Shown piece by piece: positions 18,274 through 38,461 of a DNA stretch of 64,000 nucleotides (position 1 is its first letter; every line of letters starts with the position of its first letter). A program made the translations under genes and the position numbers. Origin of the DNA: Sphingomonas sp. SUN019 (lineage in GTDB: Bacteria; Pseudomonadota; Alphaproteobacteria; Sphingomonadales; Sphingomonadaceae); assembly GCF_024758705.1 (NCBI RefSeq), contig NZ_CP096971.1, positions 1,736,001 to 1,800,000 of the forward strand, given 5' to 3'. A model generated the notes under the pieces. It made no database searches, had not been told where the DNA came from, and was given only the letters and a program-made list of their open reading frames with translations.

Positions 18274-18276
18274 ACG

Positions 18277-18326
18277 GTCCCCTACTCCCTCTGCCGTCTC
18301 CTCCCTGATGGCAGCGGGACTTTTTT
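18277..18326 (+). terminator. Likely terminator after the TonB receptor
   Basis: A two-step stem (GTCCC 18277-18281 with GGGAC 18316-18320; CTGCC 18291-18295 with GGCAG 18310-18314) followed by six T residues at 18321-18326. Imperfect, so read-through to the next gene is possible. Confidence 0.5.
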
Positions 18327-18366
18327 CCGGGACCGGTTTACGCCACGACCGCGCCGGGGACGAAGC

Positions 18367-19902: not shown

Positions 19903-19912
19903 CGACGCCCCC

Positions 19913-21223: not shown

Positions 21224-21274
21224 CCGGCGGTCGGATGACACGAGGCCCACGCCCACTTCCGCAATTTTCCTTGC

Positions 21275-21311
21275 CGATAGCTATTCGTAAAATGATTGCC
21301 GTAAGCTATCG
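21275..21311. promoter_or_regulatory. Inverted repeat upstream of the ROK regulator
   Basis: CGATAGCT at 21275-21282 and AGCTATCG at 21304-21311 form 8-bp inverted arms 21 bp apart, 79 bp before the regulator start. A matching element occurs upstream of the TonB receptor at 46254. Candidate operator. Confidence 0.4.
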
Positions 21312-21389
21312 ATCGGCGATGGTTGGGAGCGACGGATTGAAGATCGGCAGCAAACACTTGGTGCCCAACCACACAAGCGGTCACGCAGC

Positions 21390-22616
21390 ATGATCCGCGC
21401 CCGCCAGTCGCCGCGACTCGTCGGCGCGAACATCGAACATGCCGGGCAACACAATCAGCGCGTCGTGTTGCACGCGATCCGCGTCAATGGCCCCGTGACG
21501 CGCGCGGACCTGGCCGATGTCACCGGCCTTACCCCGGCGACCGTGACCAACATAACCAACCGCCTGCTCGAATCGGGATTGCTCGACCGTGCTGGTCAGC
21601 GTCGTGGCGGGCGCGGGCAACCGGCGACACGCCTGGTAGTCAATCCGAACGGTGCGTTTTCGGTCGGGGTGAATATCGACCGCGATCATCTGACGATGGT
21701 CGCGGTCGATTTCGGCGGCGCAGTGCGCGCGCGGATCGGCCGCGAGATGGCGTTTCCCATGCCGGAGGACGTGCGCGCCTTCTACACCGGGGAAATCGAC
21801 GCATTGCTTGCCCAGGCGGGAATGCCGCGGTCGGCCGTCACGGGGATCGGTGTGGCGCTGCCGGACGATCTGGGCGCTGTCGATCTGCCGGGACGCCCGG
21901 CCGACTACGAACGCTGGTCCGCAACCCGGCTGGAGGAACTGTTCGCCGCCCCGCTGAACGTGCCGATCCTGGTCGAGAACGACGCCGCCGCCGCGGCGAT
22001 CGGCGAAATGCAGTTCGGCCTCGGCCAGCATTATTCCAGCTTCTTCTATCTGCTGGCGACGTTCGGCCTGGGCGGCGGAGTGGTGGTCCACTCACTCTAC
22101 GATCGCGGCGCCGACGGGCGCAGTGGAGAGATCGGCTTCATGATCGTCGACGATGGCCGTGGCGGCATGACGCAATTGCAGAACATCCTCTCGCTGGCCG
22201 GCCTGGCGCGCGAGTTCGATCTGGCGGGCCTGTCCGGCGAGAGCGTCCGCGCGCCCGACGTGACCAAGGCGCCAGTCGCGCGGGTCATCCAGAATTGGGT
22301 GGAGCGCGCGGCGCAGGCGCTGGTGCAGCCGATGATCGCGGTCAACTGCCTGCTGAACCCGGAGGTCGTGCTAGTCGGCGGGCGGCTGCCGATCGCCCTG
22401 ATCGAACAGATTGCGCACCGCACCAACACATTGGTCCGGATGCACGGTAGGCACGCGCCCGCGATCGCGCCGATCCGCGCAGCCGCGCTGGCGGAGGACG
22501 CCGCCGCCGTCGGTGCAGCATTGCTGCCGTTCGGCGAGTTATTGCTGCCAGCGGATGCGGGCGCGCTGCGCCGTGAACGGACCGGCGACCCGATACACCA
22601 TCACGCCGCAATTTAA
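21390..22616 (+). CDS. ROK family transcriptional regulator (NagC/XylR-like)
   Basis: A 408-residue repressor-type ROK protein. Residues about 20-75 form a winged helix-turn-helix (VTRADLADVTGLTPATVTNITNRLLESGLL), followed by the sugar-binding ROK domain (FSVGVNIDRDHLTMVAVD, VLVENDAAAAAIGE, FGLGGGVVVHS). The cysteine-rich zinc motif of most ROK proteins (CxCGxxGC) is missing; the corresponding region reads DDGRGGMTQLQNIL. It probably senses the sugar taken up by the neighbouring porter and controls the cluster. The fructokinase gene starts 85 bp downstream on the same strand. It has no strong Shine-Dalgarno; the ATG at 21390 fits family N-termini. Confidence 0.9.
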   Translation: MIRARQSPRLVGANIEHAGQHNQRVVLHAIRVNGPVTRADLADVTGLTPATVTNITNRLLESGLLDRAGQRRGGRGQPATRLVVNPNGAFSVGVNIDRDHLTMVAVDFGGAVRARIGREMAFPMPEDVRAFYTGEIDALLAQAGMPRSAVTGIGVALPDDLGAVDLPGRPADYERWSATRLEELFAAPLNVPILVENDAAAAAIGEMQFGLGQHYSSFFYLLATFGLGGGVVVHSLYDRGADGRSGEIGFMIVDDGRGGMTQLQNILSLAGLAREFDLAGLSGESVRAPDVTKAPVARVIQNWVERAAQALVQPMIAVNCLLNPEVVLVGGRLPIALIEQIAHRTNTLVRMHGRHAPAIAPIRAAALAEDAAAVGAALLPFGELLLPADAGALRRERTGDPIHHHAAI

Positions 22617-24055: not shown

Positions 24056-24167
24056 GGTTCAAGGCTTGTCGAATTCGACAAATTGATGTCATAATTATTC
24101 GAGACGGTTTAGCGCCAAATGGAACAGCGGTCCGTGAGTAACCGCGATCCGTCGGGAGAGAATGGGA

Positions 24168-27100
24168 ATGAGGGCTTTTCGACACCTGACCACGGCGCTG
24201 CTCGCCACGGTCGCGGCTCCCGCGCTGGCCGGGGTGCCGGAGGGTGCGGGGCCGTACAACGCTACTTTCCTACCCGGTGGGATCGGGATCGAGCGGCCGT
24301 TGCCAAACGCCGACGCGCTCGTGTCGGCGGGTGCCGCTTATTCGATCAGCACTTGGGTGCGGGCAGACGCGCGGCAGACCGGGACCGTCACGCTCGTCGC
24401 GCTCGGCACGCCGGATGCGGCCTGTCGCTGCCTGATGCTCGTCGACAGCCGGCTGGCGCTGCGCGATGGGGAACGGACGATCGCGACCGGCCCGGCGATC
24501 GCCCGTGATCGCTGGACCCATGTCGCCGCGGTGTCGGATGGGCGGCGGGTGATGCTGTATGTCGATGGTCGTCGCGTCGGCGGGGGTATTGGCGCTAGCA
24601 GCGCGGTTGCGCCGACGGTTGCGATTGCGCCTCCGATCAATGGACGCGCGCACTTCGGCGGCACGCTGGTCGGCGCGACGGTGCATGACGATGCGCTGTC
24701 GGCGGACGCGGTCGCCGCAGCTTTCCGAGCGCGTCCGGACTTCGATCTTGTCCAACTGTGGCGCGTCGGCGTCGGCTGGGAGTGGCAAAACAAGGCCAAT
24801 ACCGGGCTGTGGCGGCAGCAGGATCCGTGGACACTGCCGCAAAGCAAGACCGCCTACACAGCCCCGGTCGCGAAACCCGTCGTGGCCGCCCCCGCGTTGC
24901 AAGTTATCGCGCCGAACCACTGGCAGGTGAATGGCTGGACGCTCGCCGCTGCCCCCGACGTGAAGGGCGATGGCGCGACGCTTTCGCGCCCCGGCGTGTC
25001 GGGCAAGGCGTGGCGCGCGGCGACCGTGCCGGGGACGGTGCTGCAGACGCTGGTCGACCGCGGCGTCTATCCCGATCCCTATTACGGCCTGAACAATCTG
25101 AAGATTCCGGAAAGTCTGGCGCGGCAGGACTATTGGTACCGCACCAGCTTCACCGTCCCGCCGGAGGCCGCGGGCAAGAAGCTGACCCTGGTTTTCGGCG
25201 GCGCGAACTATGCCGCCGAAATGTGGGCCAATGGCGCGCGCCTCGGCAACACCACCGGCGCGTTCATCCGCGGGCAGTTCGATTTCGTCCCCGTTGCAGG
25301 GGAGAATGTCGTCGCGGTGAAAGTCGCACCGCCGCCGCACCCCGGCATCCCGCACGAACAATCGGTGAAGGGCGGCGTCGGCGAAAACGGCGGGCAGATG
25401 GCGATCGACGGCCCGACCTTCGTCGCGGCCGAAGGATGGGACTGGATCCCTGGCATCCGCGACCGCAACACCGGGCTGTGGCGTCCGGTCGAGTTGATCG
25501 CTCACGGCGACGTGCGGATCGGCGATCCGCAGGTCGTCACCGACCTGCCGCTACCACGCACCGACCGCGCCGACCTGCACATCATGGTGCCGGTGGAGAA
25601 CAGTGGCACGGCGAAAAGCGTCACCGTGCGCGTCGCGTTCGAGGGCGTGACGGTCGAAAAGACCGTTACCGCCGCCCCCGGCCGGACCGACGTGCGCTTC
25701 ACGCCCACCGAGTTCAGCCAGCTCACGATCGCGAAGCCTCGGCTGTGGTGGCCGAACGGATATGGCGACCCGGCGCTCTACGACATCACGTATGAGGTCC
25801 GCGACGGCGGGGCGCTGTCCGATACGAAGCGCGACCGATTCGGGATTCGCGAGGTCAGCTACGATCTGTCGCTGTTCGACCGCGCGGGCGCGTTGCGGCG
25901 GGTGAACGTCCAGACGACCGATGGCGGCCTGGCCGGTCAGAAGCTGATCGCGGTGAACCACGAGGCGATCAAGCAAAGCCCGCACGGCTGGGCCGAATCG
26001 CTGACCCCGGCGGGTGAGACATCGACGGGCGTCACCGCGATCGCCGAGACATTGCCCGAGCCGCATTTGACGATCCGCGTCAACGGCGTGAAGATCGCCG
26101 CGCGCGGCGGAAACTGGGGTATGGACGATGCGATGAAGCGCGTCAGCTACGACTGGCTGAAGCCGTTCTTCCGGCTCCAGCGCGAGGCGCACATGAACGT
26201 CATCCGTAACTGGATGGGCACCAATACGGAGGAGGAGTTCTACGATCTGGCCGACGAAAACGGCATGATGATCCTGAACGATTTCTGGCAGTCGACACAG
26301 AATTTCCAGGTCGAGCCGCAGGATCCGCAACTGTTCCTGGCCAACGCGCGCGACACCATCGCGCGCTACCGCAACCATCCCTCGATCATCCTGTGGTTCG
26401 GCCGCAACGAAGGCGTGCCTTACCCCGCGCTGAACGAAGGGCTGGACGATGCGGTGTTCGACCTGGACGGCACGCGCTGGTTCACCGGCAGTTCCAACGT
26501 CGTGAACCTGCAGGGGTCCGGGCCGTATAATTACCGCCCGCCGGCGGGATATTTCACCGATCTGGCGAGCGGATTCTCGGTCGAGACGGGCACGCCGTCA
26601 TTTTCCACAAAGGAATCGATCGAGAGCTACGTCCCGCCTGCCGACCGCTGGCCGCTGGGCGACACGCTCGCCTATCACGACTGGCATTTCGCCGGGAATG
26701 GCGACACGAAGACGTTCATGCAGACGCTATCGACGATGTTCGGCCCCGGCGCCAACTTCGCCGATTTCGAGCGCAAGGCGCAGATGATGAACCTCGAAAC
26801 GCACAAGGCGATGTACGAGGGATTCCTGGGGCATCTGTGGACGAAGAACAGCGGGCGATTGCTGTGGATGACCCACCCCGCGTGGCCGTCGAATGCGTGG
26901 CAAATCTATTCGTGGGACTATGACACGCACGCGGCTTATTACGGTGCGAAGAAGGCCGCCGAGCCGATCCACGTCCAGCTCAACCTGCCCGGCAACGAAC
27001 TGATCGTACTGAACACGACGCAGGCCGACGCGCGCGGGCTGACCGCCCGCACCCGCGTCGTCGGCCTCGACAATCGCGAGTTGTTTACTCGCGAAGACCG

Positions 27101-27575
27101 GCTGGATGCGCTGGCCAACCGCGCGACGCCTTTGGCCGCGGTGCCGCTCGACCGGCTGTATGCGACGAACCCGGTGGTGCTGGTCAGCCTGACCCTGGCC
27201 GACCGCGCGGGAAGGACCGTGTCGGAGAATTTCTACTGGCGCGGCAGGGATACCGCATCCTATCGCGCGCTGAACGACCTCGCCCCCGTCGCGCTGACCG
27301 CGGCCGCCGCTGCGCCGGTGGTCGCAGGCGAGGATCGCAGCATCACCGTCACGCTGTCGAACGGCACGCAGACCCCTGCGCTGAACGCCAAGCTGACGCT
27401 GGTCGACGACGCCGGAAAGCGTATTCTCCCCGCTTTCTACAGCGACAATTATGTCGCGCTGCTGCCGGGCGAGAAGAAGACGATCATCGTCCGCTACCCC
27501 GCCACCGTGACCGCTGGCCCCAGCCTGACCCTGCGCGGTTGGAACGTACCGGAAACGAAGGTCGCAGTCCGGTGA
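24168..27575 (+). CDS. Glycoside hydrolase family 2 protein with LamG-like N-terminal domain
   Basis: A 1135-residue exported glycosidase. Signal peptide (ATVAAPALAG, about 20 residues), then a LamG/concanavalin-like domain to about residue 190 (YSISTWVRADARQTG, DRWTHVAAVSDGRRVMLYVDG), then the GH2 jelly-roll (WYRTSFTVPPEAAGKKLTLVF), the immunoglobulin-like domain (RLWWPNGYGDPALYDITYEV) and the TIM barrel. The acid/base Glu is in LWFGRNEGVP and the nucleophile is probably the Glu of SVETGTPSF. The layout resembles exo-beta-mannosidases and exo-beta-glucosaminidases; the linkage is not certain. I prefer the ATG at 24168, 7 nt after GGGAGAG, over 24162. The SGNH hydrolase follows by 34 bp, and the 3-keto-glycoside operon converges from the right. 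Confidence 0.9.
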   Translation: MRAFRHLTTALLATVAAPALAGVPEGAGPYNATFLPGGIGIERPLPNADALVSAGAAYSISTWVRADARQTGTVTLVALGTPDAACRCLMLVDSRLALRDGERTIATGPAIARDRWTHVAAVSDGRRVMLYVDGRRVGGGIGASSAVAPTVAIAPPINGRAHFGGTLVGATVHDDALSADAVAAAFRARPDFDLVQLWRVGVGWEWQNKANTGLWRQQDPWTLPQSKTAYTAPVAKPVVAAPALQVIAPNHWQVNGWTLAAAPDVKGDGATLSRPGVSGKAWRAATVPGTVLQTLVDRGVYPDPYYGLNNLKIPESLARQDYWYRTSFTVPPEAAGKKLTLVFGGANYAAEMWANGARLGNTTGAFIRGQFDFVPVAGENVVAVKVAPPPHPGIPHEQSVKGGVGENGGQMAIDGPTFVAAEGWDWIPGIRDRNTGLWRPVELIAHGDVRIGDPQVVTDLPLPRTDRADLHIMVPVENSGTAKSVTVRVAFEGVTVEKTVTAAPGRTDVRFTPTEFSQLTIAKPRLWWPNGYGDPALYDITYEVRDGGALSDTKRDRFGIREVSYDLSLFDRAGALRRVNVQTTDGGLAGQKLIAVNHEAIKQSPHGWAESLTPAGETSTGVTAIAETLPEPHLTIRVNGVKIAARGGNWGMDDAMKRVSYDWLKPFFRLQREAHMNVIRNWMGTNTEEEFYDLADENGMMILNDFWQSTQNFQVEPQDPQLFLANARDTIARYRNHPSIILWFGRNEGVPYPALNEGLDDAVFDLDGTRWFTGSSNVVNLQGSGPYNYRPPAGYFTDLASGFSVETGTPSFSTKESIESYVPPADRWPLGDTLAYHDWHFAGNGDTKTFMQTLSTMFGPGANFADFERKAQMMNLETHKAMYEGFLGHLWTKNSGRLLWMTHPAWPSNAWQIYSWDYDTHAAYYGAKKAAEPIHVQLNLPGNELIVLNTTQADARGLTARTRVVGLDNRELFTREDRLDALANRATPLAAVPLDRLYATNPVVLVSLTLADRAGRTVSENFYWRGRDTASYRALNDLAPVALTAAAAAPVVAGEDRSITVTLSNGTQTPALNAKLTLVDDAGKRILPAFYSDNYVALLPGEKKTIIVRYPATVTAGPSLTLRGWNVPETKVAVR

Positions 27576-27609
27576 GGCGGCTCGCGTCTCCCCAACGACA
27601 GGAGCATGT

Positions 27610-28311
27610 ATGATCGCACGTCGCACCCTGATCGGCAGCGTCGCGTTGGCCGGCCTCGCCACCGCCGCGCGTGCCGAAGACGCGGATGCGGCCCGCCGCG
27701 AGGACTGGCCGCAGCTCGGCCGCTATGCCGCCGACAATCGCCGCCTCGCCGATCGCGGGGAACGCGTCGGGATCGTCTTCCTGGGCGATTCGATCACCGA
27801 AGGCTGGCGCGACAAGCGCCCGGGCTTCTTCACGAGCGGCCGCGTCAATCGCGGCATCGGCGGCCAGACCAGTCCGCAGATGCTGCTGCGGGTCATGGCC
27901 GACGTGGTGGCCCTTAGGCCCAGGGCGATGCACCTGATGGCGGGGACGAACGACATCGCCGGGAATACCGGCCCCATGACGGTGGTGCAGACGCAGGGCA
28001 ATCTTCGCGCGATCGTCCAGCTCGCGCGCGCCAACGGCATCGCCGTGCTGCTCGCCTCGGTCCCGCCCGCGGCGCGTTTCCCGTGGCGGCCGGGTGTCGA
28101 GACGATCGCCCCGATCAATGCGCTCAATGCCTGGGCGCGCGCCGCAGCCCCCGCGCTCGGCGCAACCTTCGTCGACTACACCCCGGCACTGGCCGATGCG
28201 CGCGGCGCGATGAAGCCCGGGCTGGCCAGCGACGGCGTCCATCCGACACAGAGCGGGTACGACGCGATGGCGGCGATCCTGTCACCGATCCTGGCGCGGC
28301 TGACGTTGTAA
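27610..28311 (+). CDS. Exported SGNH/GDSL hydrolase
   Basis: A 233-residue esterase-like protein with a Tat-like or Sec signal (MIARRTLIGSVALAGLATAARA). The SGNH blocks are all present: FLGDSITEGW (nucleophile Ser), NRGIGG (Gly), GTND (Asn) and DGVHPTQSGY (Asp-His). It probably removes acetyl or other acyl groups from sugars in the periplasm, as its neighbour is a GH2 glycosidase. AGGAG lies 7 nt before the ATG. It ends 12 bp from the convergent FG-GAP gene. Confidence 0.9.
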   Translation: MIARRTLIGSVALAGLATAARAEDADAARREDWPQLGRYAADNRRLADRGERVGIVFLGDSITEGWRDKRPGFFTSGRVNRGIGGQTSPQMLLRVMADVVALRPRAMHLMAGTNDIAGNTGPMTVVQTQGNLRAIVQLARANGIAVLLASVPPAARFPWRPGVETIAPINALNAWARAAAPALGATFVDYTPALADARGAMKPGLASDGVHPTQSGYDAMAAILSPILARLTL

Positions 28312-28323
28312 GATCACGCGATA

Positions 28324-29481
28324 TCAGTTTCTCCGACGCGTCGCAGGCCCCAGCAACAATCGCGCCTGCGTGCCCCAGCCGCCGACAAACAGATCGTCGT
28401 CCCCGTCGCCGTTCACGTCGCCAACCGCCATGCTCCAGCTTCGGCCGGTCGTGGCGGCGGGTATCGTTTCTGTCGTGGCATCGCGGAAACGCCCCGCGCC
28501 GTCATTGACATAGGCGCGGAGTTGCGACGGTTCGAAGCCGGGGACCGCGATCGCACCGACGATCAGGTCGGGATGACCATCGCCCGTAAAATCCATCACC
28601 GCGCCGCCCCAGCTCGAGAAACGATTGGCGGGCAACCGCCTCGCCGTTTCGTCGATGAAGCGTCCCGCGGCGTCCTGAATCAGCAGGCGCGCCTGCGGGT
28701 TCTTGTCCCATTTCCCGGCATTGCTCGTCAGGTTGAGCAGCAGGATGTCGGGCCGCTTGTCGCCGTTGGCGTCGAGGACATGGACCTCGCGCGTTTCCAG
28801 CGGGGTCACTTGCCGGAGCCGGTCCGACGCCTCGGTGAAGCGGCCCTTGCCATCGTTGATGAGCAGCCGGGTGGGCGGCGCTTCGGTCGCAACGACCATG
28901 TCGAGATCGCGGTCGCCATCGAGATCGGCGAGCGCCACGCCCTGCGCGCTGTTGCCGATGTCGGGCAGATGCGTCGCGGTCGCGTCGATGAACCAGCCCG
29001 GACGGCGTGCGTCGTTTAACCACAGGGAGTTGCGCGCATCATGGCCCTTGGACGAATTGCCGACCACGATATCGGGCAGGCCGTCGCCATTCACATCGCC
29101 CACCGCCAGCCCGTTGCCCTCGCTCTGCGCGGGCAGCCGGTCGCTGGCATCGGTGAAGCGCCCTCCGCCGCGCCCCAGGAACAGTTGATGGACGCGGTCG
29201 TCCTCGGCGACAAAGATCAGGTCGATATGCCCGTCGCGATCGACATCGGCCGCGCGGACGTGCTCGGTATCATGCGGCTGATCCCCGAACGCGCCCTCGC
29301 GCCAGGTGAAACGCCCGCGCCCGTCGTTCAGGTAGAGCCGGTTCGCGCCCCCCTCGACCGCGAGCGCCGCATCCAGATCGCCATCGCCGTCGACATCGGC
29401 CAGTGCGATATCCAGCGCGTGAAGGTCGGGCGCCCGCGGCACATGGGTCGCGGTCACGTCACGGAAAGTCGCCGGCTTCAC
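28324..29481 (-). CDS. FG-GAP/VCBS repeat protein lacking its signal peptide
   Basis: A 385-codon frame made almost entirely of FG-GAP/VCBS repeats, each with a calcium-loop-like D-x-D-x-D-G motif (ADVDGDGDLDAALA, GDVNGDGLPDIVVG, ADLDGDRDLDMVVA, GDVNGDGDDDLFVG). It should fold as a seven-bladed propeller and belongs outside the cytoplasm. The frame has no signal peptide, but 26 codons upstream and in the same frame an ATG (29559) begins one, cut off by an amber codon at 29494-29496. As it stands only the GTG at 29481 could start a leaderless protein, so the gene is probably inactive unless the amber is suppressed or a sequencing error. It is the last gene of the operon. Confidence 0.8.
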   Translation of the reverse strand: MKPATFRDVTATHVPRAPDLHALDIALADVDGDGDLDAALAVEGGANRLYLNDGRGRFTWREGAFGDQPHDTEHVRAADVDRDGHIDLIFVAEDDRVHQLFLGRGGGRFTDASDRLPAQSEGNGLAVGDVNGDGLPDIVVGNSSKGHDARNSLWLNDARRPGWFIDATATHLPDIGNSAQGVALADLDGDRDLDMVVATEAPPTRLLINDGKGRFTEASDRLRQVTPLETREVHVLDANGDKRPDILLLNLTSNAGKWDKNPQARLLIQDAAGRFIDETARRLPANRFSSWGGAVMDFTGDGHPDLIVGAIAVPGFEPSQLRAYVNDGAGRFRDATTETIPAATTGRSWSMAVGDVNGDGDDDLFVGGWGTQARLLLGPATRRRN

Positions 29482-29493
29482 CTCCGGCGAAGG

Positions 29494-29559
29494 CTACGCC
29501 TCACACGCGATGGCCGCGAGCAACGCCGCGATCCACAAGCCGTGAGCGGTCGACCGCAT
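29494..29559 (-). other. Orphaned lipoprotein-like signal peptide ending in amber
   Basis: ATG at 29559, with CGGAG 8 nt upstream, encodes a 21-residue signal sequence (MRSTAHGLW, then IAALLAAIACEA) with a lipobox-like LAAIAC, followed by TAG at 29494-29496. After the TAG the same frame continues as PSPEV into the FG-GAP protein without a shift. It starts 17 bp after the GMC oxidoreductase stop. Confidence 0.65.
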
Positions 29560-29575
29560 CGCGCGACTCCGTTCG

Positions 29576-31258
29576 CTAGATGGAGCCCGCCTTCATCTGC
29601 TTGACCGCGTGATCGACTGCGCGCGCGGTCAGCGCCATGAATGTCAGGGACGGATTCACGCACGCGATCGACGCCATCTGCGCGCCATCGGTGACGAACA
29701 GATTCGCCGCGTCGTGCGCCTGGCTCCATTTGTTCAGCACGGACTGGCGCGGATCGGCGCCCATGCGCGCGCCCCCCATTTCGTGGATCGCATCGCCGGG
29801 GACATGCTCGCCGCGATCGCTCTTCACGTTGGTCATCCCCGCCTTGCGCAACATCGCCTCCCCCTCGGTCCGCGCGTCGTCCATCATCTTGATTTCGTTG
29901 TCGCGGAACGTGACGTCGAAGCGCATCAGCGGTACCCCGAAGCGATCGACCTTGTCGGCGTGCAGACTGACCCGATTGTCCTCATAAGGCAGGCATTCGC
30001 CGAACGCGGTCATTCCGAACGTCCACGGGGCGTAACCGCGCATGCCCTGCTTCATCGACGCGCCGAACCCTTGCGGCGCCAGCGGTACGCGCTGCGCGCT
30101 GCCCTGATACCCATAGCCACGCTTGAAGCCGACGTTTTCGTCGCCACCGACATTGCGGAAGCGCGGAATATAGACGCCGCCGGGGCGGCGGCCATATTCG
30201 ATATAATCGGTCATGCCGGGGATGTCGCCGTTGATGCCGACCCGGAAGATATGGTCCATGACATAGCCGCCCAGCGTGTTACTGGTGTCGAAATGACTCT
30301 TCTTGCTCCCGGCAGACCGTGAATTCATCAGGATTTGCGTCGAGGCCAGCGCAGAAGCGCACAGGAACACCAGCTTCGCGGGAATGATCTCGGCCTGATT
30401 GGTCTTCGCGTCGACCACGCGAACGCCGGTGACGCGTTTGCGTTTCGCATCATATTCCAGGTTCGTGACGACCGAATCCGGCCGCAGCGTCAGCCTGCCG
30501 GTGGCGCGGGCGGCGGGCAGAGTGACCGCCTGCGTGGAGAAATACGCCCCGAACGAACAGCCGCGTCCGCACTGGTTGCGGTATTGGCATTTGGTGCGGC
30601 CCTTGTTCTCCTGGTCCTCGGTCATATTGGACAAGCGGGTATTGATCAGCTTGCGGCCGGGTGAGGTCGCCTCCAGCCGGCCCTTCAGCCATTTCTCCGC
30701 GATGTTCATCTGCATCGGCGGCTGAAACACGCTGTCCGGCAGTTGCGGCAGGTTCTCGCGCGATCCGGACACGCCGATGTATTTCTCGACATAATCGTAC
30801 CACGGCGCGACGTCGTCATAGCGGATCGGCCAGTCGATCCCGACGTTGTCGCGCTTGTTCGCCTCGAAATCGTCGGGCGCCCAGCGGAAGCTCCAGCGGC
30901 CCCAGATCAGCGACTTGCCACCGACCGCCGCCGGCCTGATCCAGTAGAATTTGGACCCCTCGTCATAGGCGTACGGATTCAGCCGGTCGTTGTTGTAATA
31001 TTTCTGATTGGCGGGCGAGACATAGCCGTGCTTGGCGATGAAATAATCGCTCTCCATCAGCTTCGACGGCATCTTGTCGCGCGCCGGGATTTCATACGCG
31101 GGCTTGCCGTCGTAATCGTAATTCTCGCCGTGCTCGACCATCACGCCGCGGTCGAGCATCAGGACGCGCAGGCCCTTTTCGGTCAGTTCCTTCGCCGCCC
31201 AGCCGCCGCTCACCCCGGAGCCGATGACGATCGCGTCGAACTTGTCGGTCGCTGCCAT
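29576..31258 (-). CDS. GMC oxidoreductase, likely catalytic subunit of a glycoside 3-dehydrogenase
   Basis: A 560-residue FAD enzyme of the GMC family. FAD motif IGSGVSGGWAAKEL at residues 12-25; RPAAVGGKSLIWGRWSFRW for the flavin contact; a cysteine-rich patch CQYRNQCGRGCSFG; the C-terminal catalytic block IHEMGGARMG and NPSLTFMALTARAVDH with the conserved Asn/His region. It matches the large subunit of gluconate/glucoside dehydrogenases that work with a subunit-3 protein and cytochrome c, both in this operon. It has no signal of its own, so it would be carried across by Tat on the partner subunit. Predicted to oxidise the C3 hydroxyl of glycosides in the periplasm. The TIM-barrel gene ends 21 bp upstream. 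Confidence 0.9.
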   Translation of the reverse strand: MAATDKFDAIVIGSGVSGGWAAKELTEKGLRVLMLDRGVMVEHGENYDYDGKPAYEIPARDKMPSKLMESDYFIAKHGYVSPANQKYYNNDRLNPYAYDEGSKFYWIRPAAVGGKSLIWGRWSFRWAPDDFEANKRDNVGIDWPIRYDDVAPWYDYVEKYIGVSGSRENLPQLPDSVFQPPMQMNIAEKWLKGRLEATSPGRKLINTRLSNMTEDQENKGRTKCQYRNQCGRGCSFGAYFSTQAVTLPAARATGRLTLRPDSVVTNLEYDAKRKRVTGVRVVDAKTNQAEIIPAKLVFLCASALASTQILMNSRSAGSKKSHFDTSNTLGGYVMDHIFRVGINGDIPGMTDYIEYGRRPGGVYIPRFRNVGGDENVGFKRGYGYQGSAQRVPLAPQGFGASMKQGMRGYAPWTFGMTAFGECLPYEDNRVSLHADKVDRFGVPLMRFDVTFRDNEIKMMDDARTEGEAMLRKAGMTNVKSDRGEHVPGDAIHEMGGARMGADPRQSVLNKWSQAHDAANLFVTDGAQMASIACVNPSLTFMALTARAVDHAVKQMKAGSI

Positions 31259-31279
31259 GAATTATTCCCTCGAATATTA

Positions 31280-32116
31280 TTACGCGCCAATACGGCTGAG
31301 CGTGCCGAAACTGGTCGTGATGTCGGGAAGGTATGGCGCGGGCGACTGATCGTTCTCGACGTAGAGATGCTTGACCCCCGCGGCGGCGTTCAGCGTGAAG
31401 ATGTCGGCGAAATCGACCACGCCCTTGCCGACGCTGGTCATCTTGCCGTCCGCAGTGCGATCCTTGACGTGATAGGCGTAGATGCGCCCCGGCAGGCGTT
31501 TGATGATCGCCTTTGGATCCTCGCCGGCGTCGATCGCCCAGAACAGGTCCAGCTCGATCTTCACCAGCGCCGGATCGCCGTCCTTCACCAGCATGTCGAA
31601 CAGGCTGACGCCGCCGGGCTTCACCCGGAATTCGAAATCGTGATTGTGGTACGCGAAATCGAGGCCGCTCTTCTTCAGGCGTTCGGCCAGGCGATTGAAA
31701 TCGGCCACCGCCTCTTTCCAGGCATCGGCGTTGCGGAACGTCTCGCCCATGTACGGCACGACGATCGTGTCGGCGCCCAGTGTCTTGGCCATCTTCACCG
31801 AACCGTCGAAATCGGCGGTCAGCGCCTCATATCCGACATGGATCGACGGGGCGGTCAGCCCCAGCCGGTTCATCGTCTTGCGCAAGGCGGCGTGATCCAT
31901 CTTGTCATAGCCGCCACCGCCGTATTCGACCTCGCGGTAGCCGATCTTCGCGACTTTCTCGAGCGTACCCGTCGGATCGGGTCCGAACAGTTCGCGCACG
32001 GTATATAGCTGAAGGCCGATCTTGCGCTTCCGGGCCTGCGCGGTCAGCGGGCCTGCCGCGATCGTGGTGGCCAGCGCAACGCCGCCCGCCATCCATTGCC
32101 GCCGGTCGATCATCAT
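31280..32116 (-). CDS. Exported sugar isomerase/epimerase-like TIM barrel
   Basis: A 278-residue AP-endonuclease-2-type TIM barrel (sugar phosphate isomerase/epimerase superfamily) with a Tat-like leader (MIDRRQWMAGGVALA). Metal-site motifs: GYREVEYGG, DFAYHNHDFEF, VKIELDLFW, IYAYHVKDRT and HLYVENDQ. Exported members of this superfamily in similar operons act on 3-keto-sugars, as epimerases or as eliminases cleaving 3-keto-glycosides. The first four bases overlap the upstream gene's stop (ATGA at 32116-32113), so the pair is translationally coupled. Confidence 0.85.
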   Translation of the reverse strand: MMIDRRQWMAGGVALATTIAAGPLTAQARKRKIGLQLYTVRELFGPDPTGTLEKVAKIGYREVEYGGGGYDKMDHAALRKTMNRLGLTAPSIHVGYEALTADFDGSVKMAKTLGADTIVVPYMGETFRNADAWKEAVADFNRLAERLKKSGLDFAYHNHDFEFRVKPGGVSLFDMLVKDGDPALVKIELDLFWAIDAGEDPKAIIKRLPGRIYAYHVKDRTADGKMTSVGKGVVDFADIFTLNAAAGVKHLYVENDQSPAPYLPDITTSFGTLSRIGA

Positions 32117-32670
32117 GACGAATACACCTTGTTGACCTGGGAATAGGGGAAAGCGCCGTCATATCGGCCAGGCACGGGGAGATATTCGCGCTCCTGCGTG
32201 ATGCCGACTTCCGACGTGAAGTAACCGGTGACGACCATCTGGCGGAAACTTTCGAAGAACTGAGCGCCGCCGGGCAGTTGATCGTTCATCGCCAGCGTCA
32301 ACAGCGCGTCCTGCTGTGCGGGCGTCGCCGTGGCCCCTGGCACCTTGTAGTCGGACCGGCTGCGCGCCTCGATCGCGTCGAGTCCGGCGATGATCGGCAC
32401 ACGATCCTCCGGCAGCGACCAGTCGGCCAGCAGCTTTTCGATATAACCGGGTACGCCCGCGGTGATTGCGCCCGGCGTGTCGGTGGTCGGCATCACGCGT
32501 TCGCTGAGCGCGGTCATCAGCGCGCGCTGTTCGGCCGTGAACACCGCAGCGCTCGGCGGACCGGCACTGATCGGTGTCAGCTGCCCGGTCGCCGCGCGGG
32601 CGAGCGGTGCGTACAGCGCCGCGCCGAACATCGCGGCCATACCCGCCAGCGCGTCCCTGCGATCGATCAC
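32113..32670 (-). CDS. Gluconate 2-dehydrogenase subunit 3 family protein
   Basis: A 185-residue protein of the gluconate dehydrogenase subunit 3 family: Tat-type leader (MIDRRDALAGMAAMFGAALY), then FTAEQRALMTALSERVMPTTDTPGA and a C-terminal block (FFESFRQMVVTGYFTSEVG) typical of the family. In characterised complexes this small subunit brings the GMC subunit through the Tat system and is needed for activity with cytochrome c. It overlaps its neighbours by ATGA on both sides (32670-32667 and 32116-32113), which indicates fixed subunit ratios. Confidence 0.9.
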   Translation of the reverse strand: MIDRRDALAGMAAMFGAALYAPLARAATGQLTPISAGPPSAAVFTAEQRALMTALSERVMPTTDTPGAITAGVPGYIEKLLADWSLPEDRVPIIAGLDAIEARSRSDYKVPGATATPAQQDALLTLAMNDQLPGGAQFFESFRQMVVTGYFTSEVGITQEREYLPVPGRYDGAFPYSQVNKVYSS

Positions 32671-33497
32671 TTCACGGCTCCCTGAAAGTCCCGGCTCTGC
32701 GCCGCGTCGGGCAGCGGGCGGACCCAGATGTTGCGGAACGATACCGGCGAGCCATGATCCTGCAGCTGGATCGGCGCGGCGTCGCCGTGCGCCTCATATC
32801 GCGCGACCTTGCGCCAGACGGTGCTGCCCAGCCACGGCTGACGGTTCTGCACCAGTACGCCGTTTAGGAACGCGGTAGCATAGGCCGGGCGCAACAGCTT
32901 GCCGTCCCCAGCGAAGCGCGGCCGTTCGAACACGATGTCGTAGCTTTGCCATTCGCCGGGCCGCCGCGACGCGTTCACCAGCGGTGGTTTCCACGCATAG
33001 ATCGCGCCGACCGTGCCGTCGGCGTAAGTCGGGTTGTCATAGCCGTCGAGGATCTGGATTTCGTAGCGTTGCATGAACCAGATCCCGCTATTGCCGCGAT
33101 CTTGCGAGCTCTTTGTCGGCGGGTTGGGGGAACGGAATTCCAGGTGAAGCTGGACGTCGCCGAAGCTCTGCTTGCTGACCAGCGCGTTTTCCGGTGCGCC
33201 CTCGACATGCGGCGGAACGGTCATCGCGCCGTCCTTCAGCGACCACGCCGCCCCCTTCGACTGCCATGCGCCCAGCGACGTGCCGTCGAACAGCACCACG
33301 GCGTCGGATGGCGCAGCGCCCGGCGTGGGGCTGGGAGCGACGATCGCCGGCTGCGGGCGATCGGCGTCGTGTACGCGCCATTTGCCGTCGGGCAGCATCG
33401 GCGTGTCGCGAAAACCGGGCTTCTCCTGCGCCATGCCGCTGCTGCTCCCGGTCGCTGCCGCGACGATCGCGGTCGCGGCCATCATGATACGCTTCAC
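32667..33497 (-). CDS. DUF1080 / 3-keto-disaccharide hydrolase family protein
   Basis: A 276-residue exported protein with the DUF1080 (3-keto-disaccharide hydrolase) domain, a LamG-like beta-sandwich. Signal peptide MKRIMMAATAIVAAATG; domain from VVLFDGTSLGAWQSKG to the C-terminal FRNIWVRPL; conserved GNSGIWFMQRYEIQILDGY in the middle. Characterised members hydrolyse 3-keto-glycosides made by C3 oxidation. Two starts compete: ATG 33512 overlaps the previous stop as ATGA; GTG 33497 has AAGGAG 6 nt upstream and gives a cleaner signal peptide, so I chose it. The long frame upstream is a shadow of the TIM-barrel gene. Confidence 0.88.
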   Translation of the reverse strand: MKRIMMAATAIVAAATGSSSGMAQEKPGFRDTPMLPDGKWRVHDADRPQPAIVAPSPTPGAAPSDAVVLFDGTSLGAWQSKGAAWSLKDGAMTVPPHVEGAPENALVSKQSFGDVQLHLEFRSPNPPTKSSQDRGNSGIWFMQRYEIQILDGYDNPTYADGTVGAIYAWKPPLVNASRRPGEWQSYDIVFERPRFAGDGKLLRPAYATAFLNGVLVQNRQPWLGSTVWRKVARYEAHGDAAPIQLQDHGSPVSFRNIWVRPLPDAAQSRDFQGAVK

Positions 33498-33508
33498 ATC
33501 ACGCTCCT

Positions 33509-34417
33509 TCATGCCACGTCGATCGCGCGATACGCGGCGACCAATCGGTCCTCGCCCGCGCGGCCGTCGATCGAATTGCCGTGCTCCATGCCGATGACCC
33601 CGGCATATTTCCGGGCACGCAGCCAGCGGACGACGTTCCGGTAATTGACCTCGCCCGTGCCCGGCTCCTTGCGGCCGGGGTTGTCGCCGAACTGGATGTA
33701 ACCAATCTCGTCCCAGCAGGCGTCGAGCGTGTTGATCAAATTTCCGGACTGGATCTGTTCGTGATACAGATCGGCGAGCACCTTCATCGCCGGGCTGTTC
33801 ACCGCTTTTGCGACCGCATAGCCCTGCGGCACGGTCGTCATGAACACGCCGGGATGGTCCACCAATGTGTTCAGCGGCTCCATCACCATGACCAGGCCGT
33901 GCGGTTCGTAGATATCGGCGGCGCGGCGCAGCACGTCGATGACGCGCCCGGTCTGGATGTCGACCGGCAGCTTGCGGTCCATGAACCCGGTGACGATCGT
34001 CATGTGCTTCGCATTCAGCCGCTTGGCGACGTCGACCGAACTGCGGATGTCGGCCAGGAAGCGCGTGCGATCGGCATCGTCGTTTCCCCCCAGCAGCGGG
34101 CGGAAATCGGACCATCGCGGCATGCTGGCGACGAACACGCCCATCGTCATGCCGCGCTGCTGCAGCGCCTTCGCCATCGCGGTCTGTTCGGCGACGCTGC
34201 GGCCCGCGGCCTCATTGTCTTCCCATGCGGTGAAGCCCTGGTCCGCGGCGAAGGTGATCTGTTCCAGCCTGCCGCCACGGCTCGTGAAGCTGCCCTCATG
34301 CGGGGCGAAGCCGAGCGAGAAGCGTGCCGCGTTCCGTGCAGGAGCCGCCCCGATCACCGCCGCCGCGCCGACGCCCACCGCGCTCGCCGCCAGCACCGTC
34401 CGTCGCGACACGCTCAT
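33509..34417 (-). CDS. Tat-exported hydroxypyruvate-isomerase-like TIM barrel
   Basis: A 302-residue TIM-barrel protein of the hydroxypyruvate isomerase/sugar epimerase group with a Tat leader (SVSRRTVLAASAVGVGAAA). Metal-ligand positions look filled: MVMEPLN, LADLYHEQIQ, YIQFGDNPGR and VIGMEHGNS. It is the second of three such barrels in the operon and is distinct in sequence from the other two. Likely to act on a keto-sugar in the periplasm; the exact reaction is not clear. Its start overlaps the MFS stop by ATGA (34417-34414). Confidence 0.83.
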   Translation of the reverse strand: MSVSRRTVLAASAVGVGAAAVIGAAPARNAARFSLGFAPHEGSFTSRGGRLEQITFAADQGFTAWEDNEAAGRSVAEQTAMAKALQQRGMTMGVFVASMPRWSDFRPLLGGNDDADRTRFLADIRSSVDVAKRLNAKHMTIVTGFMDRKLPVDIQTGRVIDVLRRAADIYEPHGLVMVMEPLNTLVDHPGVFMTTVPQGYAVAKAVNSPAMKVLADLYHEQIQSGNLINTLDACWDEIGYIQFGDNPGRKEPGTGEVNYRNVVRWLRARKYAGVIGMEHGNSIDGRAGEDRLVAAYRAIDVA

Positions 34418-35715
34418 GCCGTCTCTCCCGCCAGCACGGCGCGTGATTTCCCGCGCTCACGCAGCCAGATGAAGCCGAATACGAACAGCAGGATGACCGG
34501 CAGGATCGCGAGCCGCTGGAACGACAGCGACGCCGCCGCATCCTCCACCGCCAGCCGCGCGTCGCCGGTCAGCCGTGCAAACGCCTCGGGACCGCCGGCG
34601 AACTCGATCTTGGCCTGATCAAACATCGCGCCCAGCCGCGGCAGCACGAAGAAGCTGGCGAGCGCCCCCGCCGACCCGACCAGTCCCATCGCCCACGATC
34701 CGCCGCGCGGATAGCGTTCCGCGACCGAAGCGAGCATCGTCGGCCACATCACGCACACGCCCAGACCCCACACCGTCGCGGCGACGATCGCAGCGACCGG
34801 GGACTGCGCTTGGGCTAGCATGAACAGCCCGATCGCGGCCAACCCGCTCGATATCCACAGCAGGCCCGGATTCGATATCCGGTGCGCCAACCGCCCGGCG
34901 AAATGGCGGAACACGAACATCAACGCATTGACGTAAACGAGCAACAGGATCCCGCGCATCCCGACGCGGTTCGACAGTGCAACATCGATCCACTGGCCCG
35001 GCGCCAGTTCGGACGCAGCGGTCAGGAACATCGCGCCGAACCAGATGAAGAAGCTGGGCCGCTTGAACACCTCGCCCACCATTTCGCCGAACCCGACGCC
35101 GCTTTGCGTGCGCAGCGGCGGCGGGAACGTCGTGGCCGCTGCGATGACGATCGTCGCGACGGCGGGGACCATTACCAGCGCCATGATGCCCTGCCACGGC
35201 AATGCCGCCGACAGGAAGAAACCCGCAAGGCCACCGACGATGATGCCGCCGGGGAACCAGGCGTGCAGCACGTTCAGCCGGTGGGTCGTGTCCTCGGGAT
35301 AAAGCTGCGCGGTCAGCGGATTGATCGTCGCTTCGGTCAGACCCCAACCGATCCCGCTCAGCAACATGCCGAACCAGACCAAAGTATATACGCTCATGCC
35401 GGTCGCGACATGGCCCGCGGTGACGATCATTAACGGGCCGAGGAAGAAGCACAGCCCCGCTCCCAGCAGGCTCCTTTTCATGCCGATCTGGTCGAGCAGC
35501 GCGCTGGCGACGAACAGCGTGATGGCGAAGCTGAGGAATGCCGCGCCCAGCGCCGCGGCGAGCAGTTCGCCCGCATTCAACGGCGCGATCGGATCGATCC
35601 ATTCGCTCTTCAATCCGCTGGCGATAGCACCGCGGATGGCGAGGCCAGCGGCGGCGGTGAACAGCGCCAGCACGCCCAGCCAGAACAACCGTCCCTTGTT
35701 CAATGTCGTCGCCAC
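34414..35715 (-). CDS. MFS transporter of the sugar-oxidation operon
   Basis: A 433-residue major facilitator with about twelve membrane helices. Helix 4-5 carries GMLLSGIGWGLTEATINPLTAQLYPEDTTHRLNVLHAWFPGG, the pattern of FHS/FucP-like and sugar MFS proteins associated with such operons. It likely carries the product of periplasmic cleavage, a keto-sugar or its free aglycone partner, into the cytoplasm. It is inside the operon, 30 bp after the third TIM-barrel gene and overlapping the next. Confidence 0.85.
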   Translation of the reverse strand: MATTLNKGRLFWLGVLALFTAAAGLAIRGAIASGLKSEWIDPIAPLNAGELLAAALGAAFLSFAITLFVASALLDQIGMKRSLLGAGLCFFLGPLMIVTAGHVATGMSVYTLVWFGMLLSGIGWGLTEATINPLTAQLYPEDTTHRLNVLHAWFPGGIIVGGLAGFFLSAALPWQGIMALVMVPAVATIVIAAATTFPPPLRTQSGVGFGEMVGEVFKRPSFFIWFGAMFLTAASELAPGQWIDVALSNRVGMRGILLLVYVNALMFVFRHFAGRLAHRISNPGLLWISSGLAAIGLFMLAQAQSPVAAIVAATVWGLGVCVMWPTMLASVAERYPRGGSWAMGLVGSAGALASFFVLPRLGAMFDQAKIEFAGGPEAFARLTGDARLAVEDAAASLSFQRLAILPVILLFVFGFIWLRERGKSRAVLAGETA

Positions 35716-35745
35716 GCCCGCTCCTCTGTTATATTTTCTGCGCGC

Positions 35746-36789
35746 TCAGCTCAGTCCGAGCATCGCGCGATTGAGCGCCGGATCGCTGCCACCGGCGAAA
35801 TCGTCGAACGCCCGGTCCGCCTTGCGGATCATGTGCGCGGTGATGAACGGCGCGCCTTCGCGTGCGCCGTCCTCGGGATGCTTCAGGCAGCATTCCCATT
35901 CGAGCACCGCCCAGCCGTCATAGCCATATTGCGTCAGCTTCGAAAATATCCCCGCGAAATCCACCTGTCCGTCGCCCAGCGAACGGAAGCGGCCCGGACG
36001 GTCGATCCAATCCTGGAAGCCGCCATAAACCCCGGACCGGCCGGTCGGGTTCAGCTCCGCGTCCTTGACGTGGAACATGCGGATGCGGTCGTAATAGATG
36101 TCGATGAATTGCAGATAATCGAGCGCCTGCAATACATAGTGACTGGGATCGTAGAGGATGTTGGCGCGCGGGTGATCGCCGACGCCCGCCAGGAACCGCT
36201 CGAAGCTGGCGCCGTCGTGCAGATCCTCGCCTGGGTGAATCTCATAGGCGAGGTCGACGCCCTGTTCGTCGAACGCATCGAGGATTGGCCGCCACCTTTT
36301 CGCCAGCTCGCCGAACGCCTCCTCGACCAGCCCCGCGGGGCGCTGCGGCCACGGATAGATATACGGCCACGCCAGCGCGCCGGAAAAGGTCGCATGCGCA
36401 TTCAACCCCAGCCGCCTGCTGGCCTTGGCCGCCAGATGAAGCTGCTCCACCGCCCACGCCTGCCGCTCGGCCGGCTTGCCGCGCAACGCCTCTGGCGCGA
36501 AGCCATCGAACGCCACGTCATACGCCGGGTGGACCGCGACCAGTTGACCCTGCAAATGGGTCGACAGCTCGGTTATCTCGACCCCCGCCTCGCGACAGGC
36601 GCCGACCAGCTCATCGCAATAATCCTGGCTCTCGGCCGCCTGACGCAAGTCGATGCAGCGGCTGTCCCACGTCGGAATCTGGACGCCGGCATAACCGGCA
36701 TCGGCCATCCAGCGCGCGGCCGACGGCAATGTATCGAACGGGGCCGCATCGCCCATGAACTGCGCCAGGAAGACCGCCGGGCCTTTCAC
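35746..36789 (-). CDS. Cytoplasmic sugar isomerase/epimerase-like TIM barrel
   Basis: A 347-residue TIM barrel without a signal peptide, larger than its two exported relatives. Visible ligand motifs: VDLAYEIHPGEDLHD, ANILYDPSHYVLQALDY, RIRMFHVKDAELNPTG and GWAVLEWECCLKHPE. The WECCLKHPEDGAREGAPFI ending is typical of a subgroup seen with Gfo/Idh dehydrogenases in sugar operons, where members epimerise keto-sugars. Being cytoplasmic, it would act after the MFS protein, probably alongside the Gfo/Idh enzyme at 37304. It begins 25 bp after the cytochrome c stop. Confidence 0.85.
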   Translation of the reverse strand: MKGPAVFLAQFMGDAAPFDTLPSAARWMADAGYAGVQIPTWDSRCIDLRQAAESQDYCDELVGACREAGVEITELSTHLQGQLVAVHPAYDVAFDGFAPEALRGKPAERQAWAVEQLHLAAKASRRLGLNAHATFSGALAWPYIYPWPQRPAGLVEEAFGELAKRWRPILDAFDEQGVDLAYEIHPGEDLHDGASFERFLAGVGDHPRANILYDPSHYVLQALDYLQFIDIYYDRIRMFHVKDAELNPTGRSGVYGGFQDWIDRPGRFRSLGDGQVDFAGIFSKLTQYGYDGWAVLEWECCLKHPEDGAREGAPFITAHMIRKADRAFDDFAGGSDPALNRAMLGLS

Positions 36790-36814
36790 GCTGCCGCTTC
36801 CGCTCGTTCGACGT

Positions 36815-37207
36815 TCACTTCGACGTTTCGGTCTTGAGATAGGCGATCAGCGCGGCGCGACGTGCGGGATCGGCCACCTTCACCACCATTCGCGTACCCG
36901 GCACCTTGGTCGACGGCGCGGCAAGATACTCGCTCAGCGTCTTTTCGTCCCAGCGGATGTTCGACGCCTTCAGCGCGGCGCTATAGTTGAACCCGGCGAC
37001 CGACCCCGCCTGACGCCCGAACAGGCCGTGCAGGTTCGGACCCACCGTGTTCTTACCACCCGCTGGCAGCGTGTGACAGGCGCGGCACGCGGCAAACGCC
37101 TGCGCACCCGCGCTGGCGGCGGGTTGTGCCTGTACCGAAGAAAGCGAAGGCAGACCTAACGCAAGACATGCCGCTAGAACCGGCGGCAGTCCGATCAATA
37201 ATTTCAT
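36815..37207 (-). CDS. Class I cytochrome c
   Basis: A 130-residue periplasmic cytochrome with a signal peptide (LLIGLPPVLAACLALGLPSL), one haem site CRACH, the following PNLHGLFGRQAG, and the axial Met in VPGTRMVVKV, the mitochondrial/c2-type fold. It is the first gene of the nine-gene operon that includes a GMC oxidoreductase and its small subunit, so it is the probable electron acceptor of the glycoside dehydrogenase, passing electrons to the terminal oxidase. Confidence 0.92.
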   Translation of the reverse strand: MKLLIGLPPVLAACLALGLPSLSSVQAQPAASAGAQAFAACRACHTLPAGGKNTVGPNLHGLFGRQAGSVAGFNYSAALKASNIRWDEKTLSEYLAAPSTKVPGTRMVVKVADPARRAALIAYLKTETSK

Positions 37208-37303
37208 TGTCCTCTCCGGTCTGGCAACGATCGGTCAGTGCATGTAACCGGCCCCGAACAATATGTGCAACCATTTATCGGAATTAAGGAAGCGAGGCCG
37301 CCA

Positions 37304-38461
37304 ATGAGCGCATCATCAAAGTTACGCTACGGCATGGTCGGCGGCGGCGAGGGCGCGTTCATCGGCGCGGTTCATCGCATGGCGGCGGCGCTGGACGGCG
37401 ACTATGTTCTGGCGTGCGGCGCGTTCAGCGGCGACGCGGCGCGAAGCCGGCGCAGCGCGGAGGCGCTAGGCGTCGATCCAGCACGGGCATATGCCGGGCT
37501 CGACGCCATGCTCGCGGCGGAAGCTGCCCTGCCGCAGGACCAGCGAATGCAGGCGTTGGCGATCGTGACTCCCAACCATCTCCACGCGCCGATGGCGATC
37601 GCTGCGCTGGACGCGGGTTTCCATGTGTTTTCCGAAAAGCCGATGGCGCTGAACTTGACCGAGGCGCGCGCGATCGAGGCGGCGGTCGGGCGCAGCGGCA
37701 AGCTGTACGGCCTGGCCTTCACCTACAGCGGCTATCCGCTGATCGAGGAGGTGCGGGTGCGCGTCGCGCGGAGCGACTTCGGACGGGTCCGGTTGGTCCA
37801 GGTCGAATATTCCCAAGGCTGGCTCAGCCTGCCGATCGACCGCGACGGCAACAAGCAGGCCGAATGGCGCACAGATCCCGCGCGCGCGGGGCTGGGCGGC
37901 TGTCTGGGCGACATCGGCACCCACGCCTTCCAGCTGGCCGAGCACGTTTCCGGCCTGACGGTCGCAGAACTCAGTGCGGACCTGACCGCGCATGTCCCCG
38001 GACGTCGCCTGGACGACGATGTGTCGGCGCTGCTGCGCTTCGCGGGCGGCGCGCGCGGCGTGCTAAAGGCCAGTCAGGTCGCCGCGGGGGACGAAAATGG
38101 CCTGCGCCTGCGTATCCACGGCGAACGCGGCGGCTTGGACTGGTCGCAGATGGAGCCCAACACGCTGACACTCCGCTGGCTCGACCGCCCGACCGAAATC
38201 ATCCGCGCGGGCGGGCCGGGCCTCGACGCCCTGACGACCGCCCGGCTGCGGACCCCGGCGGGGCATCCCGAAGGATATATCGAGGCGTTCGCGAACCTCT
38301 ACCGCAGTTTCGGCCGCGCCGTTCGCGCCGGCGCGACGGCCCCGCCGCCGACCGGTGCGCCGGACTGGTTCCCCGGCATCACCGATGGCGTCAGGACGAT
38401 GACCTTCGTCGAGGCGATGATCGAGAACAATGCAGGCTCCGCGAAGTGGACCCCGCTCTAA
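37304..38461 (+). CDS. Gfo/Idh/MocA family oxidoreductase
   Basis: A 385-residue NAD(P)-dependent dehydrogenase. Rossmann motif MVGGGEGAFIGAVHR; EKPMALN with the conserved Lys; GGCLGDIGTHAFQ with the catalytic Asp/His region; C-terminal alpha/beta domain complete. It is divergent from the cytochrome c operon, 96 bp apart, which suggests joint control. In 3-keto-sugar pathways such enzymes reduce the imported keto-sugar back to the hexose or oxidise a related sugar. I start at 37304 (GAGG 6 nt upstream); the open frame to 37238 lies in the promoter region. Its end overlaps the convergent MFS gene by 4 bp. Confidence 0.9.
   Translation: MSASSKLRYGMVGGGEGAFIGAVHRMAAALDGDYVLACGAFSGDAARSRRSAEALGVDPARAYAGLDAMLAAEAALPQDQRMQALAIVTPNHLHAPMAIAALDAGFHVFSEKPMALNLTEARAIEAAVGRSGKLYGLAFTYSGYPLIEEVRVRVARSDFGRVRLVQVEYSQGWLSLPIDRDGNKQAEWRTDPARAGLGGCLGDIGTHAFQLAEHVSGLTVAELSADLTAHVPGRRLDDDVSALLRFAGGARGVLKASQVAAGDENGLRLRIHGERGGLDWSQMEPNTLTLRWLDRPTEIIRAGGPGLDALTTARLRTPAGHPEGYIEAFANLYRSFGRAVRAGATAPPPTGAPDWFPGITDGVRTMTFVEAMIENNAGSAKWTPL

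Follow-up and report, generated by a model that had tools for sequence, protein, structure and literature searches.

Within a 64,000-nt window of the genome of Sphingomonas sp. SUN019 (a single contig of 3.8 Mb; all coordinates are positions within the window), we identified a gene block, 29576-38461, which can be read with considerable confidence as the sphingomonad form of a known non-hydrolytic glycoside locus, with its proposed steps distributed over two compartments. The pathway itself is already known: the available text of PMC10628242 describes a four-enzyme glycoside pathway of Agrobacterium tumefaciens, comprising GlycDH, AtOGE, AtHYD and Gfo. What is new here is the combination of genes and the presence of a third TIM barrel. 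No description of a sphingomonad version of the pathway was found in the open-licence literature searched. Homology argues strongly for the pathway. Sphingomonads would then break down glycosides by the elimination route, with steps predicted to be shared between periplasm and cytoplasm, and one conserved exported enzyme of this setting (33509-34417) stands out as having no assigned reaction.

The cytoplasmic TIM barrel encoded at 35746-36789 (minus strand) matches PDB entry 8ro4, titled 2-hydroxy-3-keto-glucal hydratase AtHYD of A. tumefaciens, over its full length (585.8 bits, 71% identity over 347 positions), and is very probably identifiable from this match as a hydratase of the AtHYD type. 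The model of the exported barrel encoded at 31280-32116 (minus strand; predicted local distance difference test, pLDDT, 89.1) is closest to the 3-keto-beta-glucopyranoside-1,2-lyases 8tcd, 8tcr and 8tct, with 8bvk also near. This barrel keeps the active-site residues of AtOGE, i.e. the Mn site and the equivalent of the catalytic His134; fold and residues very probably identify it as an AtOGE-type 3-keto-beta-glucoside 1,2-lyase. An earlier reading of the window, made from the letters and their translations (the sequence-only reading), had expected several undescribed steps from the three barrels of this operon. As two of them match the AtHYD and AtOGE types, this expectation reduces to a single barrel, 33509-34417.

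The GMC flavoprotein (29576-31258, minus strand; PF00732/PF05199) is a predicted glycoside 3-dehydrogenase with a 3Fe-4S cluster. Its nearest solved chain is that of fructose dehydrogenase (7w2j, E 1.9e-37), followed by glucose dehydrogenase. Its residues C224, C230 and C234 match, in spacing and alignment, the 3Fe-4S ligands Cys212, Cys218 and Cys222 of BcGDH, and H492/N535 align with the His/Asn pair of that enzyme, as given in the available text of PMC6719666. The cysteine pattern is kept in all 120 nearest homologues, the window's own copy counted. The gluconate-dehydrogenase subunit 3 type protein (32113-32670, minus strand; PF13618, 112.4 bits) is predicted to be the export (hitchhiker) subunit for GMC, and the small cytochrome c (36815-37207, minus strand; PF00034), which carries a Sec-type leader and one CxxCH motif (CRACH at residue 41), the electron acceptor of the complex. 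From these features we infer an electron path from the flavin through the 3Fe-4S cluster to the small cytochrome c.

Nine open reading frames (ORFs) follow one another on the minus strand from 37207 to 28324, and the Gfo/Idh ORF diverges from them on the plus strand. The sequence-only reading had placed all ten correctly, and the protein families it named were confirmed by Pfam matches. The three ATGA overlaps it reported are all present (32113-32116, 33509-33512 and 34414-34417), but its count was incomplete, as the fourth 4-base overlap, at 32667-32670, is GTGA. The overlap at 33509-33512 is the reason for setting the start of the DUF1080 gene (32667-33512, minus strand) at 33512, which gives a protein of 281 amino acids with an export-type leader. 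Leaders were assigned by eye: twin-arginine type leaders were seen on subunit 3 and on the barrels 31280-32116 and 33509-34417, Sec-type leaders on the DUF1080 protein and cytochrome c, and none on the hydratase barrel or Gfo/Idh. This agrees with the view that two of the barrels are exported and one is cytoplasmic.

Based on these observations, we suggest the following route. In the periplasm, GMC, exported together with subunit 3, would oxidise a glycoside at C3 of its sugar, passing the electrons via the 3Fe-4S cluster to cytochrome c. The exported barrel 31280-32116 would then split off the aglycone by beta-elimination, yielding 2-hydroxy-3-keto-glucal, while the exported DUF1080 protein (PF06439, 137.9 bits; 4qhz, E 1.3e-53) may cleave another class of 3-keto-glycosides. 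The barrel 33509-34417 would most likely epimerise or isomerise the keto-sugar produced by the GMC complex. The carrier of the major facilitator superfamily (MFS; 34414-35715, minus strand; PF07690) is predicted to take the product, 2-hydroxy-3-keto-glucal or a 3-keto-sugar, into the cell, where the hydratase would convert 2-hydroxy-3-keto-glucal to 3-keto-glucose and Gfo/Idh would reduce the latter to glucose. Homology and gene context thus support what had been proposed from the sequence alone regarding periplasmic oxidation by GMC, subunit 3 and cytochrome c, cleavage outside the inner membrane, import and reduction by Gfo/Idh. The proposal has to be changed with respect to the main cleavage, which is most likely beta-elimination by the lyase-type barrel followed by cytoplasmic hydration; the imported compound is therefore probably 2-hydroxy-3-keto-glucal, either alongside a free keto-sugar or in its place.

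The predicted cytoplasmic 3-keto-glucose reductase, Gfo/Idh/MocA (37238-38461, plus strand; PF01408/PF22725), has levoglucosan dehydrogenase as its best NCBIfam, with a score under the model cut-off. The ORF start at 37238 probably lies upstream of the real one, since the alignment of the listed close homologues begins only at residue 20-29; the true start is probably an ATG near 37304, which would leave some 96 bases between the Gfo/Idh and cytochrome genes. The neighbourhood of the hydratase was compared in 80 loci, the best 80 of at least 597 stretches; 18 of them are shorter than 15 kb and some absences may be cut-offs. A Gfo relative lies at most 700 bp from the hydratase in 73 of the 80 (Proteobacteria, Bacteroidota, Gemmatimonadota and others). 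An MFS relative stands immediately downstream of the hydratase in 14, six of them outside the eight sphingomonad loci described below, which suggests that the carrier brings in the hydratase's substrate. In seven loci of Pelagibacteraceae (L039, L040, L041, L043, L044, L062 and L064) the hydratase is 68-69% identical and Gfo adjoins it, and no relative of GMC or the lyase was found within the stretch.

Eight named sphingomonad loci (L001-L008) have a hydratase at least 81% identical to that of the window; among the named relatives that the protein searches placed nearest, Sphingopyxis and Sphingomonas predominate. In all eight loci, Gfo, cytochrome, hydratase, MFS, HYI-like (hydroxypyruvate-isomerase-like) barrel, subunit 3, lyase and GMC follow one another in this order, with DUF1080 inserted between the HYI-like barrel and subunit 3 in seven. 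In a ninth sphingomonad locus (L076, hydratase 74%), Gfo, cytochrome, subunit 3 and GMC are present, whereas the lyase, DUF1080 and the HYI-like barrel are all absent from its stretch. None of eight flanking proteins of the window (a glycoside hydrolase of family 2, GH2; GDSL; a second MFS; two TonB receptors; PhoD; ROK; and a sugar transporter) was matched within L001-L008 at a threshold of E 1e-10 and half the protein length. For this reason we take the conserved block to extend from Gfo/Idh to GMC, and GH2, GDSL and the other neighbours were rejected as members of the system.

The HYI-like barrel (33509-34417, minus strand) is predicted, from its residues and neighbourhood, to be most likely a keto-sugar epimerase or isomerase. 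A true hydroxypyruvate isomerase was rejected, as the protein scores 126.9 bits against TIGR03234, whose curated cut-off is 353.45. The nearest solved chains to its model (pLDDT 81.5) are 1k77, 3ngf, tagatose 3-epimerases and YcjR. It has Glu-Asp-Gln-Glu at the strand ends, and E180, D216 and E278 are invariant across 22 sequences. At the end of strand 5, E180 and L182 occupy the positions that in the lyase hold the metal ligand H157 and the catalytic H159, respectively; in tagatose 3-epimerase, the residue aligned to E180 is E152 (numbering counted by hand). The HYI-like barrel thus apparently does without the catalytic histidine of the lyase, an argument built on the strand ends of the two models (HYI-like barrel and lyase), the conserved columns and the tagatose 3-epimerase alignment. 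A profile-profile comparison sensibly sets the lyase YHNH over the hydratase YEIH; for the HYI-like barrel and the lyase, it gives a residue pairing different from the one used here.

Matches to the HYI-like barrel (E <= 1e-40) occur in nine of 99 genomes of the order. Six copies are 68-100% identical, and all six share their neighbourhood with GMC and lyase genes; in G025 some 57 kb separate the hydratase from this neighbourhood. The three distant copies are 44-46% identical. In two cases (L091 and L092) the barrel gene, subunit 3 and GMC make up a unit of three genes, and neither lyase nor hydratase is present within the 16-kb and 9-kb stretches read; the third copy (L093) is at the beginning of a contig, 6.8 kb from a GMC gene on the opposite strand. 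A second relative (36%; G062, L095) adjoins GMC and subunit 3. A search of 398 genomes of the phylum (E <= 1e-50) returned only the six close copies. Relatives of the hydratase, lyase and GMC are present in 25, 29 and 32 of the 99 genomes, respectively, at each search's own threshold.

When the 80 hydratase loci were divided by the presence of GMC (at least 40% identical) together with subunit 3, HYI-like barrels (profile score above 150 bits) were found in 13 of the 16 loci with both partners, compared with one of the 64 without. After removal of the nine sphingomonad loci the proportions are 5/7 and 1/64 (Fisher 9.4e-6); this P is only a guide, as the loci are related, 18 of the 80 are under 15 kb and the profile (21 seeds) includes counted members. 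Three copies outside the seeds (L029, L059 and L063) still score 300, 301 and 228 bits. The gammaproteobacterial and Bacteroidota copies in the HYI alignment are only 22-23% identical to the window barrel and may catalyse a different reaction.

More specifically, we tentatively propose that the product of 33509-34417 could be a periplasmic keto-glycoside epimerase or isomerase working with a respiratory-chain-linked GMC glycoside dehydrogenase, a proposal that we put forward as a possibility. In one version its substrates would be 3-keto-galactosides (or other epimers) and its products 3-keto-glucosides; in the other it would convert 2-keto-glycosides that arise spontaneously back to the 3-keto form. 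If the former is true, a single lyase, hydratase and reductase would serve many sugars. It is rather unlikely that this barrel is instead a second lyase, acting on 3-keto-glycosides of another configuration. The three-gene units of L091 and L092 are what one would expect if the HYI-like barrel itself cleaved the oxidised product; however, both genomes do hold lyase and hydratase genes on other contigs. The nearest solved structures (HYI-like proteins, ketose 3-epimerases and YcjR) and the replacement of both lyase histidines also speak against a second lyase, with the caveat that the profile-profile alignment places other residues there.

Several points weigh against the glycoside-elimination reading of the whole block. 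In the fetched stretches, 64 of the 80 hydratase loci have no GMC (at least 40%) with subunit 3, and since the hydratase/Gfo pair stands in many loci with neither GMC nor lyase there, the pair is not tied to the GMC/lyase route. Both the lyase and the GMC family have many paralogues in the order (66 GMC matches are listed in the 32 genomes mentioned above), and therefore family membership does not fix the substrate. Compared with a corresponding gene run of Agrobacterium pusense, described below, the window proteins are only 48% (GMC) and 28% (lyase) identical, with 30% for subunit 3 and 46% for Gfo, and the substrates may thus differ. The role of 33509-34417 is drawn from residues and neighbourhood, and DUF1080 is absent from one of the eight sphingomonad loci. 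A LacABC-like 3-keto-lactose system, in which the DUF1080 hydrolase would be the main cleaving enzyme, free 3-keto-hexose would be imported and the lyase and hydratase would be side branches, seems to us improbable. According to the available text of PMC9007349, growth of Caulobacter crescentus on lactose requires lacABC together with the gene of an exported DUF1080 protein encoded nearby, and other organisms that use lactose have LacA-type and DUF1080 genes side by side; the presence of DUF1080 in seven of the eight sphingomonad loci fits this picture. On the other hand, the substrate of the hydratase is the elimination product and not a free keto-sugar, and both hydratase and lyase occur in 8/8 loci, versus 7/8 for DUF1080. 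Elsewhere in the source genome there is also a 503-amino-acid ORF with two DUF1080 domains (L099, G000:C1:795755-797053).

The last ORF of the minus-strand run, an FG-GAP repeat ORF (28324-29481; PF13517), was rejected as an operon member, contrary to the sequence-only reading. It is present in only one of the eight loci and, read from its GTG at 29481, itself lacks a leader; one of the lipoprotein type can be read at 29559-29494 and is closed by an in-frame TAG lying 12 bases ahead of the GTG. In the Sphingomonas gilva homologue (L005), leader and body form one uninterrupted ORF. The gene is probably decayed and outside the working pathway. Convergent with the operon, 24162-28311 encodes the GH2 protein, which carries both a LamG-like domain and an exo-glucosaminidase Ig domain, and after it the GDSL hydrolase. 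A plus-strand run at 15223-22613, with genes for a TonB receptor, a tryptophan-halogenase-family protein, a sugar transporter and a ROK-type regulator, has the look of a glycan-use locus in its own right.

The components of the A. tumefaciens-type pathway, i.e. GMC with an exported partner, an AtOGE-type barrel, hydratase and Gfo, are all found in the window locus. The A. pusense run (L116) consists of hydratase (93% to 8ro4), Gfo, lyase-type barrel, GMC, subunit 3 and cytochrome c. It represents the operon type described in the available text of PMC10628242, and a comparison of gene order, suggested by the sequence-only reading, showed that relatives of six window genes stand together there. 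ABC-transporter-like and LacI-like ORFs adjoin this run, whereas the window has an MFS carrier, and the lyase-type barrel of A. pusense bears a Sec-like leader (all by eye), which means that exported cleavage is not special to sphingomonads. The window adds DUF1080 and the exported HYI-like barrel to this type of pathway. The A. pusense genome holds a further hydratase/Gfo pair, located without GMC (L034) and adjoining another set of ABC-transporter-like ORFs.

The Bacteroides pathway begins with a Gfo/Idh-type dehydrogenase rather than a GMC complex. The Alistipes/Bacteroides lyases named above (8tcd, 8tcr and 8tct) share 27% identity with the lyase barrel of the window. YcjR of Escherichia coli is cytoplasmic and paired with other dehydrogenases. 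This 3-keto-D-glucoside 4-epimerase (6wn6) is 17% identical to the HYI-like barrel, with a Z score tied with those of the tagatose 3-epimerases. The direct-electron-transfer fructose and FAD glucose dehydrogenases (7w2j, 6a2u) resemble the window complex in the GMC fold, the cluster cysteines, the His/Asn pair and the small exported partner. However, they possess a multihaem c subunit, according to the available text of PMC6719666, whereas the operon cytochrome has one CxxCH.

Caulobacter LacABC and the window are alike, by description and gene neighbourhood, in having a periplasmic GMC-type dehydrogenase (predicted for the window) and a neighbouring exported DUF1080 protein. In the available text of PMC9007349 the LacABC route proceeds by hydrolysis, no lyase or hydratase is named, and the fate of 3-keto-galactose is left open. 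If the product of 33509-34417 does convert 3-keto-galactosides into 3-keto-glucosides, it would offer an answer to that question.

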